A stretch of DNA of 55,261 nt from Reyranella massiliensis 521. GTDB lineage: Bacteria; Pseudomonadota; Alphaproteobacteria; Reyranellales; Reyranellaceae. Numbering within the stretch: position 1 is the stretch's first letter; each line of letters begins with the position of its first letter. The notes beneath the pieces were generated by a model. It did not search any database and had not been told where the DNA came from. It saw nothing but the letters and a program-made list of their open reading frames with translations. Both the position numbers and the translations under genes were made by a program. Of the stretch, positions 32,212 to 42,285 are shown one piece after another. Location: the NCBI GenBank assembly GCA_945862125.1, contig CAMAYC010000019.1, forward strand, positions 1 to 55,261, written 5' to 3'.

Positions 32212-32985
32212 CTAGTCTCCAAGCGCCGCTTTGCCGATGACCGGCGTGGACGGCGCTGCCATGTCGCGCGGCTCCAAGGGCTGGGCAAGAAAGGCCGTGC
32301 GACCCGCGTCGACCGCGAGGGCAAAGGCCCGCGCCATGGCCACGGGATCGCCCGCCTCGGCGACCGCCGTGTTGAGCAGCACCGCGTCGTAACCCATTTC
32401 CATGGCTGCCGCGGCATGAGAGGGCACGCCGAGGCCGGCATCGACCACCAGCGGAATGTCGGGAAAATGAGCTCGCAGTGACTTCAGGCCGTAGACGTTG
32501 TTGAGACCGCGCGCCGAGCCGATCGGCGCGCCCCACGGCATCAGCACGCGGCACCCCGCCTCGACCAGGCGATCGGCGACCACGAGATCCTCGGTCGTGT
32601 AGGGAAATACCTCGAAGCCGTCCTCTGAGAGAATACGCGCCGCCTCGACCAGGCCGAACACGTCGGGCTGCAAGGTGTCGGACTCGCCGATGACTTCGAG
32701 CTTGATCCAGGTCGTGTCGAACAGCTCGCGCGCCATGTGCGCGGTCGTCACCGCTTCCTTCACCGTGTGGCAGCCTGCGGTGTTGGGCAGCACGCGTACG
32801 CCCAGCGCCCGCACCAGGGACCAGAAGCTCTGGCCGGCGCGCTCGCTGCCGCTCTCGCGCCGCAGCGACACCGTCACGACCTCGGCCTTCGACGCCTTGA
32901 TCGCTTCGGCCAGGATCGCCGGCGAAGGATAGCGGGCCGTGCCCAGCAGCAGGCGCGAGCCGAGCTCTACGCCATAGAACGACAT
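32212..32985 (-). CDS. thiG: Thiazole synthase
   Basis: The protein is 257 aa. It has [10 protein letters not shown] near the start, the Schiff-base Lys in T-W-I-K-L-E-V-I-G and [27 protein letters not shown] near the end, all standard for ThiG. It builds the thiazole from DXP, dehydroglycine and ThiS thiocarboxylate. Dehydroglycine should come from ThiO, encoded in the same operon. Confidence 0.95.
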
Positions 32986-39875: not shown

Positions 39876-40214
39876 CTAGAACAGGCGGCCACCGTTCGGC
39901 ACGACCCGGTCCGGCGCAAACAGCACCACGCTCCCGTCTTCCGCCGGGAAGCCCAGGGTCAATACCTGCGACATGAATTTGCCGATCTGGCGCGGCGGGA
40001 AATTCACCACCGCGGCGACCTGGCGGCCGATCAGGCATTGCGGCGTATAGTGCACCGTGATCTGAGCCGAGGATTTGCGGATGCCGATCTCCGGCCCGAA
40101 ATCGATCGCCAGCCTCAGCGCCGGCTTACGCGCGCCCTCGAGCAGGGCTGCTTCCACGATGGTGCCGACGCGGATGTCGACGCGGGCGAAATCGTCGTAG
40201 GTAATCTGTTCCAT
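39876..40214 (-). CDS. csaA: tRNA-binding domain protein, CsaA-like
   Basis: The 112-aa OB-fold protein has D-I-R-V-G-T-I-V-E-A near the start, S-S-A-Q-I-T near the middle, and V-N-F-P-P-R-Q-I-G-K-F-M-S-Q-V-L-T-L-G-F near the end, the pattern of CsaA and of the C-terminal tRNA-binding domain of MetRS. CsaA of Bacillus subtilis acts as an export-related chaperone; its role in proteobacteria is unclear. The stop is 6 nt from the convergent aminotransferase gene. Confidence 0.88.
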   Translation of the reverse strand: MEQITYDDFARVDIRVGTIVEAALLEGARKPALRLAIDFGPEIGIRKSSAQITVHYTPQCLIGRQVAAVVNFPPRQIGKFMSQVLTLGFPAEDGSVVLFAPDRVVPNGGRLF

Positions 40215-40242
40215 GATGGCCGGACCCTACCGGGGTGCGGCC

Positions 40243-40273
40243 AAAAGAAAAGGGGCCGCTAAAGCGGCCCCTT
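40243..40273 (-). terminator. Rho-independent terminator after the phasin gene
   Basis: A perfect 10-bp stem, 40250-40259 with 40264-40273, loop of 4, followed on the minus strand by TTTCTTTT. It separates the phasin gene from csaA. Confidence 0.92.
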
Positions 40274-40303
40274 CCCGTTCCATCGGCGTGCGCCGATGAA
40301 AGC

Positions 40304-40738
40304 TTACTTCTTGGCGATCGCGGCCTTGACCTCTTCGGTCAGCTCGGTGACGCGCTGGCTGAGCGTGGTCAGCGCCTCGGTGTGGCCCTTGCTGTAGAGC
40401 TCGGCCAGTTCCTTGGTGTTGGCCATGGCGGCCTCATAGCTCTTCTTCACGAAGTCGATCTGCTTGGCGGCCTTCTCCTCGACGGTCGCGGCCGACATCA
40501 CGTCGCTGCCGTGCTTGGAGAGGTCTTCCATCGCGGCGCGGACCATGTCGCCCTGGCGCTGCGCGATCGCCTTCATCGACTCGACGGCCGAGGTGTTGGC
40601 GGCGGTCATGGCGGCAAAGTTCTTGCGGCCGGTCTCGACGATCGACTCGATGTTCATCGTCGGCATCTTGAACTCGCCGGCAATCTTGCTGAAGTCGAAG
40701 TCGGCGAACGGATTCTTGAAGGCGCCAGTGGCGTACAT
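40304..40738 (-). CDS. Phasin family protein
   Basis: The 144-aa protein is mostly helical with phasin_2 features: an N-terminal hydrophobic, aromatic part (F-K-N-P-F-A-D-F-D-F), a repeat-like A-M-T-A-A-N-T-S-A-V-E-S-M-K-A-I-A-Q-R-Q middle and K-K at the end. Phasins coat polyhydroxyalkanoate granules and limit their fusion. A good AGGAG site precedes the ATG, and the promoter holds TGC-rich palindromes like PhaR sites. No other pha genes are in the window. Confidence 0.9.
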   Translation of the reverse strand: MYATGAFKNPFADFDFSKIAGEFKMPTMNIESIVETGRKNFAAMTAANTSAVESMKAIAQRQGDMVRAAMEDLSKHGSDVMSAATVEEKAAKQIDFVKKSYEAAMANTKELAELYSKGHTEALTTLSQRVTELTEEVKAAIAKK

Positions 40739-40785
40739 GGGATTCTCCTGGGACTAAAAACGCGGTGAAACTCTGGGAGCGCCGC

Positions 40786-40864
40786 TTTGCTGCGGTGCAC
40801 AACAGCTCGTAATTTAGGCATGCAGTGCAGCAAGTCAAGAGACAATTTTGTGCACTGCACAAAA
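40786..40864. promoter_or_regulatory. Cluster of three TGC-rich palindromic boxes, candidate PhaR operators
   Basis: Box 1 is TTTTGTGCACTGCACAAAA (40846-40864), a 9-bp inverted repeat around one base. Box 2 (40818-40832) lies between -35 and -10. Box 3 (40786-40803) lies at the transcription start. All share the TGCN-3-4-GCA theme known for PhaR repressor sites in Paracoccus and Rhodobacter. Confidence 0.6.
40811..40838 (-). promoter_or_regulatory. Promoter of the phasin gene
   Basis: TTGACT (40833-40838) and TAAATT (40811-40816) with a 16-nt spacer on the minus strand, start near 40803. The spacer is largely filled by the palindromic TGCTGCACTGCATGC (40818-40832). Confidence 0.65.
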
Positions 40865-40867
40865 TGT

Positions 40868-41491
40868 TCACGGTGCAGGCGATTCAGCCCCCGGCGCAGG
40901 CCTCTTGAGGTCTGGCATTTTCACATACTTTTCAACGAGTTGAGCCCATTTTTCAGCGGTTTTGAGACGCTCGTCCAGAGCTGCCATGGTCTTCGACAGA
41001 TCCCCCGTCTCATCCTGGTCGAACACGCGGGAGACGGCATAATGAATCGCCAGCAGGCCGTTCTGTCGCAACGCACCAGAGAGGCCGTCGCTCGAGACGC
41101 CGGCGGCTTCGAGCATGGCCGCCATCGACCGCCGCATCGCCGGCCCGAGCGCCAGCAGCAGCAGCGGATCGCGGGCCGCCGCTGCCCGGATCGCGCCCAG
41201 CACCGCCTTGTGCGGACGGAGCGCGTCGTAGCGGCGCATCATGGTGTCGAACAGTCGGTCGCGCGCCGTTTCCTCGGGGTCGCCCTGGCTGGGTGTGCCG
41301 GCCAGCACCTCCGCATCGACGCGGGCCACGAAGGCCGCCACCAGTGCCGTCTTGTCGGGATAGAGGCGATAGAGATCGGCGAGGCCGAGGCCTGCCGCCC
41401 CCGCCACGTCGCGCAGCGTGACGGCGGCGAACCCCTTCTCGGCTACCAGGCCGAGGAAGGCGTCGAGCGCCGTCTTGCCTGTTTCCGTCAT
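40868..41491 (-). CDS. TetR family transcriptional regulator
   Basis: The protein is 207 aa. The N-terminal helix-turn-helix (about 5-50) has K-G-F-A-A-V-T-L-R-D-V-A-G-A-A-G-L-G-L-A-D-L-Y-R-L-Y-P-D-K, a good TetR recognition region. The C-terminal ligand domain is Ala- and Leu-rich. The start overlaps the proC stop (ATGA), and its stop touches the phasin operator cluster. It resembles the TetR/COQ9-like group of alphaproteobacteria in overall look, but no ligand can be named. Confidence 0.85.
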   Translation of the reverse strand: MTETGKTALDAFLGLVAEKGFAAVTLRDVAGAAGLGLADLYRLYPDKTALVAAFVARVDAEVLAGTPSQGDPEETARDRLFDTMMRRYDALRPHKAVLGAIRAAAARDPLLLLALGPAMRRSMAAMLEAAGVSSDGLSGALRQNGLLAIHYAVSRVFDQDETGDLSKTMAALDERLKTAEKWAQLVEKYVKMPDLKRPAPGAESPAP

Positions 41492-42285
41492 CCCGCGAGT
41501 TCCTTCGACCGGCGCGACGCGGCTGCGAGGGCCTTGTCGAAAACCGGTTGGATGCCGTCGTCGGCCATCAGGACCTTCAGCGCTTCGGCGGTGGTGCCGC
41601 CGGGACTGGTCACGTTGATGCGCAACTGCGCGGCGGGTTCACTCGACTGTCTCAACAATTCGCCGCTGCCCGACACCGTCGCGCGTGCGAGCTGCATCGC
41701 CATCTCCGGCGTGAGGCCGAGCTTGGCGCCGGCCGCGGCCATCGCCTCGACCAGCAGGAAGACATAGGCCGGGCCGCTGCCCGACAGCGCCGTCACCGGA
41801 TCCAGCAACGCCTCGTCGTCGACCCACAGCACCTGGCCCACGGCTTCGAGCAGCTCGTGGCAACGCTTCTTCTCGGCCGCCGACACACCCGACGCGGCCG
41901 TGGCGACGGTGATGCCCTGGCGCACGGCGGCCGGCGTGTTGGGCATGGACCGCACGACCTTGGCGCCCTTCCCGAGATGGCCCGCGAAATAACCCAGAGT
42001 CTTGCCGGCGGCGATCGACAGGAACACCGCGCCTTTGTCTGCAAAGCGTTTGAGGTCCGGCAGCACCGAATCCATCGACTGCGGCTTGACCGCCAGCACG
42101 ACGATCTCAGGCGTCTCGCTCACCTCGTTCGAGGCAGCCAAGGCCTGCAGGCCCGGCTTCATTGGCCGCAACCCCTCGGCCGGTTCGGCCACGACGACAT
42201 CCGATGCCGCGAGCCCGCGCGCCAGCCAGCCTTCCAGCATGGCGCCGCCCATCTTGCCGCAGCCGACCAGCAGCAACTTGCCCAT
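41488..42285 (-). CDS. proC: Pyrroline-5-carboxylate reductase
   Basis: The 265-aa protein has the NAD(P)-binding start L-L-L-V-G-C-G-K-M-G-G-A-M (3-15), V-K-P-Q, R-S-M-P-N-T-P-A and the ProC signature D-P-V-T-A-L-S-G-S-G-P-A-Y-V-F-L. It makes proline from pyrroline-5-carboxylate. It lies 9 nt after the enoyl-CoA hydratase gene and overlaps tetR. Confidence 0.95.
   Translation of the reverse strand: MGKLLLVGCGKMGGAMLEGWLARGLAASDVVVAEPAEGLRPMKPGLQALAASNEVSETPEIVVLAVKPQSMDSVLPDLKRFADKGAVFLSIAAGKTLGYFAGHLGKGAKVVRSMPNTPAAVRQGITVATAASGVSAAEKKRCHELLEAVGQVLWVDDEALLDPVTALSGSGPAYVFLLVEAMAAAGAKLGLTPEMAMQLARATVSGSGELLRQSSEPAAQLRINVTSPGGTTAEALKVLMADDGIQPVFDKALAAASRRSKELAG

Follow-up and report, generated by a model that had tools for sequence, protein, structure and literature searches.

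Candidate PhaR operators at a phasin promoter and upstream of dusB-ntrBC in Reyranella

In S. meliloti, accumulated PHB sequesters the PhaR repressor and relieves the repression of phasin genes (PMC12542648). In the same study, the S. meliloti phaP1 and phaP2 promoters are bound by PhaR (also termed AniA) at two palindromes of the same consensus that flank the -35 element, and mutation of these palindromes abolishes binding. For the B. diazoefficiens phaP1 and phaP4 promoters, DNase I footprints are known on TGCGACGCACAA and TGCGTCGCACAA, located 6 bp either side of the -35 element at phaP1, with the consensus TGCRNYGCASMA (PMC6201568). The PhaR targets of Paracoccus denitrificans and Rhodobacter sphaeroides, as cited in PMC10888616, contain repeated TGC motifs, the number of which may set the affinity. 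A further position is represented by the S. meliloti mmgR and SMa1961 genes, each of which has a single PhaR site near +13/+14 (PMC12542648).

We analyzed a stretch of 55,261 nt from Reyranella massiliensis 521 (the window), which is included in a 5.2-Mb draft genome as contig C19. The minus-strand gene at 40304-40738 encodes a phasin of 144 aa that matches Phasin_2 (PF09361) with 68.1 bits against a cut-off of 24.9, as well as TIGR01841; its closest relatives are 90-98% identical, many of them being located on Reyranella contigs and some on contigs with other labels. Upstream on the same strand is a TetR-like gene (40868-41491; TetR_N, 31.8 bits), which encodes a candidate rival regulator and overlaps the minus-strand proC gene (41488-42285) by four bases. 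In addition, the TetR-like product has a weak match to a COQ9-family model (22.9 bits against a cut-off of 74.55). The 129 bases from the tetR stop to the phasin start contain three candidate operator boxes, which are interleaved with a predicted promoter. The sigma-70 promoter scan of positions 40200-41000 gave a single match, on the minus strand and with a 16-nt spacer (0.1 expected in shuffles), and the order of elements on this strand is box 1, TTGACT (predicted -35, 40833-40838), box 2, TAAATT (predicted -10, 40811-40816), and box 3.

Box 1 (40845-40865) is a perfect palindrome, ATTTTGTGCA-g-TGCACAAAAT, with 10-nt arms and 1 nt between them; it is located 6 bp upstream of the -35 element, and its edge is 2 nt from the tetR stop codon. 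Box 2 (40818-40832; TGCTGCACTGCATGC, with the core TGCACTGCA at 40821-40829) is a weak site that fills the spacer and lies wholly within its 16 nt. Box 3 (40788-40802; TTGTGCACCGCAGCA) is an inverted repeat of degenerate sequence that closely follows the predicted start; it would lie at approximately +2 to +16 if transcription starts 7 nt after the -10 element. Boxes 2 and 3 are tied to the geometry of the promoter itself. The original prediction had described three TGC-rich palindromes, positioned upstream of the -35 element, between -35 and -10, and at the start site. This description is confirmed, except that the start site is a predicted one and that, of the three TGC-type boxes, box 1 alone is perfectly palindromic. 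The sites overlap the computationally predicted core promoter.

Compared with the two-box S. meliloti phaP1 and phaP2 promoters (PMC12542648), the Reyranella promoter has a third box at the predicted start, and its second box is inside the spacer. The B. diazoefficiens promoters have two sites (phaP1) or one (phaP4), and none is reported at the start (PMC6201568), where Reyranella has box 3. A parallel to this start-site box is provided by the mmgR and SMa1961 sites, which have a similar position; moreover, all 15 letters of box 3 recur within the mmgR site, and PhaR shifted the mmgR promoter (PMC12542648, Table 3). The mmgR and SMa1961 sites differ from box 3, however, in being lone sites outside any array and in belonging to non-phasin genes. 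In the TGC-rich regions of P. denitrificans and R. sphaeroides, the consensus appears less defined than in the Reyranella boxes, as far as these regions are described in PMC10888616. Thus, the three-site layout unites positions known singly elsewhere, namely the pair flanking the -35 element and the start-site box.

The boxes were scored using a weight matrix built from 17 S. meliloti PhaR sites of promoters rated 'Efficient' (PMC12542648, Table 3), none of which comes from Reyranella; three of the four exoH sites and the acyP entry, which is the reverse complement of the rpoE8 entry, were left out. Binding in S. meliloti was shown per promoter and not per individual site used in the matrix. 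Within the 55-kb window, box 1 has the highest score (30.3) and box 3 the second highest (18.8), whereas box 2 ranks sixth (10.6). When the window was resampled 40 times with a first-order Markov model, an average of 0.05 places reached a score of 18.7 or more (top score 19.8), and hence boxes 1 and 3 are beyond chance by sequence alone. The same resampling gave a mean of 1.4 places scoring at least 10.6; therefore box 2 is not beyond chance and rests on its position and partial conservation. When the 142-bp promoter, which is itself TGC-rich, was resampled 5,000 times, the 99.9th percentile was 21.7 and the maximum 27.1, and box 1 scores higher than both. Box 1 also fits the S. meliloti consensus WNWDDNYGCRNYGCRNHHWNW. 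The similarity to PhaR sites that had been noted in the original prediction is thus supported by an independent S. meliloti matrix, by which boxes 1 and 3 outscore every other place in the window.

All 57 related phasin loci, which were taken from named contigs, retain boxes 1 and 3, and the TetR-like neighbor is located beside the phasin gene in 55 of these 57 loci. The exact box 2 core TGCRNYGCA is present in 32/57 loci and missing from 25, and at least seven of its eight core letters are present in 45/57. In the alignment of these loci, boxes 1 and 3 and the -35 and -10 elements are conserved, TTGACT being near-invariant and TAAATT standing out, whereas the stretch from box 3 to the ribosome site is variable. 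The box centers in the window (40855, 40825, and 40795) have an exact 30-bp pitch, which the original prediction had not noted; however, the distance between the centers of boxes 1 and 3 is 60 bp in 42 loci, 59 bp in eight, 58 bp in five, and 56 bp in two. Strict helical phasing was considered, but as this distance shifts by 1-4 bp in 15/57 relatives, and a 30-bp pitch does not correspond to an integral number of helical turns (10.5 bp per turn), we make no claim of it. Two distant loci with a phasin identity of approximately 35% (L071 and L072) have no tetR gene and keep boxes 1 and 3.

The latter two loci bear directly on the possibility that the boxes are operators of the neighboring TetR-family protein, acting as a repressor of the phasin gene. 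Although the gene directly upstream encodes a TetR_N protein, the neighborhood is maintained in nearly all related loci as counted above, and palindromes are frequent among TetR operators, we regard this reading as highly unlikely: the boxes persist in the tetR-less loci, they are matched by a PhaR matrix built without Reyranella, and the same motif recurs at phaP2, ccr, and dusB. Furthermore, a TetR operator is expected in the regulator's own or a shared promoter region and should be lost together with tetR, and neither was found; the boxes are located 3' of the tetR stop, and at this locus there is no separate intergenic promoter for tetR, which overlaps proC. It is extremely improbable that box 1 is an intrinsic terminator of the proC-tetR transcript, even though it starts 2 nt past the tetR stop and appears terminator-like by scan, because the scan expects 1.1 such matches by chance, the stem has only three G-C pairs instead of a G+C-rich composition, the 8-nt tail contains two or three T in 29/57 relatives and never more than five instead of a T run, an A..C pair in 12/57 relatives breaks the stem yet fits the R..Y operator code, box 1 is kept where tetR is absent, and a terminator would leave boxes 2 and 3 unexplained.

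The expected regulator is encoded elsewhere in the genome. A single phaR gene was identified, the product of which scores 149.4 bits against TIGR01848 (cut-off 109.45) and contains the PHB_acc_N (PF07879) and PHB_acc (PF05233) domains; the original prediction had made its reading dependent on such a gene, which is present above the curated cut-off. We conclude that the three boxes are very probably operators for PhaR, the granule-sensing repressor, and that the phasin promoter is a well-supported addition of Reyranella to the known PhaR scheme. By analogy with the studied relatives, PhaR would bind the boxes cooperatively, repress the promoter, and be released in the presence of PHA. At low PHA, free PhaR would occupy the high-affinity palindrome of box 1 together with box 3, aided by the weaker box 2, and the resulting array, covering the region 5' of the -35 element, the spacer, and the start, could prevent RNA polymerase from binding or leaving. 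Such occlusion would presumably act most strongly via boxes 1 and 3. Upon formation of PHA granules, PhaR would be captured on their surface and the promoter freed, so that phasin output would be proportional to granule surface; phasin in turn would displace PhaR from the granules, and repression would return.

A genome-wide search revealed that the palindrome TTGTGCRNYGCACAA occurs in exactly two places, namely in the phasin promoter and in the ispDF/dusB intergenic region. Among 25 genomes of the same genus (the studied genome included), it was found in 45 places, comprising 23 phasin sites, 21 dusB sites, and one site inside an unrelated ORF, while the reversed palindrome, used as a control, gave 0 places in the same genomes. 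The 16 genomes examined outside the genus contain five exact palindromes, three of which adjoin Phasin_2 genes. The remaining exact palindromes are located 9 bp before a DprA-like ORF outside the genus (L077 1508, G029:C3), before an ORF without a Pfam match (L078), and within a periplasmic-binding-protein ORF (L103); these three are taken as chance or unexplained occurrences.

Sites of the PhaR type were also identified at other genes of the studied genome. One is located 57 bp before the second phasin gene phaP2 (L123 13424; G000:C8:23423) and is present in 15/15 genus loci having this gene, and another is located 53 bp before ccr, which encodes crotonyl-CoA carboxylase/reductase (L123 3413; G000:C8:13412), and is present in 27/27 genus loci. 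The genes themselves occur in 15 (second phasin) and 27 (true ccr) of 31 genus genomes. Both sites are weaker by matrix than the exact palindrome, and every region has p <=0.05 by resampling. The ccr site suggests a possible PhaR control of the ethylmalonyl-CoA pathway. The search for further sites near pha genes, which had been proposed along with the original prediction, thus succeeded at phaP2 but not at the third phasin gene (L123 15871-16296) or the phaC locus (L124), where no site scoring at least 7.5 was found in the stretches scanned. Near phaR, for which autoregulation has been reported in some species, the only site is weak (matrix score 10.1). On the computational evidence, the motif shared by phaP1, phaP2, ccr, and dusB-ntrBC defines a probable PhaR regulon; the wider value of the phasin promoter lies in this regulon, and most of all in its dusB-ntrBC member.

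As a lead, the dusB site surpasses the phasin promoter itself. The exact palindrome precedes the dusB(nifR3)-ntrB-ntrC-ntrY genes in 21 of 25 same-genus genomes, including the studied one (L122 2173-2193; G000:C28), and in 21/21 same-genus regions carrying it the distance to dusB is 28-33 bp. The operon assignment is based on DusB (TIGR00737) and NtrC (TIGR01818), both above cut-off, and on an NtrY_N domain; NtrB has its best match to nitrogen regulation protein NR(II), with a score of 225 versus a cut-off of 240. The sigma-70 promoter scan at dusB found no promoter. In S. meliloti, dusB-ntrB-ntrC is expressed as one transcript from the dusB promoter and is autorepressed by NtrC (PMC10746234).

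The relation between this site and PhaR was surveyed outside Reyranella, with PhaR presence scored by PF05233. The first set comprised the regions upstream of dusB in 70 among 106 DusB-matching genomes (68 without two Reyranella), and the second set comprised 102 further loci from among the top-ranked matches (99 without three Reyranella); the p values are only indicative in such a survey, owing to the relatedness among the genomes. In the first set, matrix scores upstream of dusB did not differ between genomes with and without PhaR (Mann-Whitney p 0.77), and at a matrix threshold of 13 the counts were 7/44 with PhaR versus 1/24 without it (p 0.15). We judged that AT-rich genomes lacking PhaR may inflate the scores of the AT-armed matrix, and therefore searched the 150 bp preceding dusB for the core TGCRNYGCA as published, together with 127 control palindromes. 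By this test, the first set had the core in 7/44 PhaR-bearing genomes versus 0/24 without PhaR. Since the test was changed after the first result was known, a fair comparison is given by the second set; here the core precedes dusB in 21/72 versus 1/27 genomes (p 0.004), and the best control reached 7/72. For both sets together, the core was found in 28/116 versus 1/51 genomes (Fisher 1.3e-4) and ranked first of 128 palindromes, the next one reaching 8/116. Counted by family, it is present in 13/67 PhaR-bearing families, compared with six for the best control. The exact core is absent before dusB in 88/116 PhaR-bearing genomes, and it was not found there in the sister genus of the same family (G199). 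The lone PhaR-lacking genome with the core (G193) belongs to the same genus as a genome that has both (G274). With starts inferred by alignment, the core is located at -39 to -44 in 15/29 cases and at -53 to -68 in 11/29. The ntrB gene was found in 24 of the 26 long-flank dusB loci checked, three of them Reyranella.

Thus, we propose that in Reyranella, and in around twelve further families of Alphaproteobacteria, PhaR probably also represses dusB(nifR3)-ntrB-ntrC(-ntrY) directly, via an operator located approximately 30-70 bp upstream of dusB. If this is true, PHB, the accumulation of which reflects more carbon than nitrogen, would titrate out PhaR and thereby increase NtrBC, and the granule would tune nitrogen assimilation. 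NtrC and PhaR may compete at dusB. The B. diazoefficiens gene blr4486 (nifR) is presumably the dusB/nifR3 homologue heading an ntr operon. This gene has the sequence TGCAGTGCAGCA, is up 2.01-fold without PhaR, and is tabled as PhaR-repressed (PMC6201568), a single transcriptomic line that agrees with PhaR repression of the dusB operon. In the same paper, the word nifR occurs once and ntrC never; likewise, Table 3 of PMC12542648 contains neither dusB nor ntr genes, and NtrC appears in that paper only in a reference. A literature search, with subscription papers mostly outside its scope, found no discussion of PhaR acting on the ntr operon. NtrB and NtrC mutants have altered PHB levels, according to a review (PMC9049629); if PhaR does act at an operator of the ntr operon, this would add the converse connection, by which stored carbon influences the control of nitrogen.

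The dusB survey also bears on whether the boxes might be used by another regulator of PhaR-like specificity rather than by PhaR, given that comparative data reveal the motif and not the protein. NtrC, with the site consensus GCAC-N6-8-GTGC, is a candidate in the dusB regions, where NtrC-like inverted repeats with at most one mismatch overlap 11/34 core sites. However, the repeats overlapping a dusB core are never exact, and none was found in the promoter within the window, where positions 40771-40880 contain no match to the NtrC site with up to one mismatch. Moreover, the dusB core tracks the presence of PhaR (28/116 versus 1/51 genomes), and the motif equals the one demonstrated to bind PhaR in S. 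meliloti and B. diazoefficiens (PMC12542648, PMC6201568). We consequently give very little credence to such a regulator and retain PhaR as the protein that very probably uses the boxes.

At L126 1861 of the studied genome (G000:C1, ~32353-32360), a one-mismatch palindrome, ATGTGCGCCGCACAA, has a matrix score of 13.0. In the L122 region, an imperfect inverted repeat, GCTCAATAATTGTGC, which is NtrC-like with one mismatch, is located at approximately 2167-2181, where it shares bases with the left arm of the palindrome at dusB.
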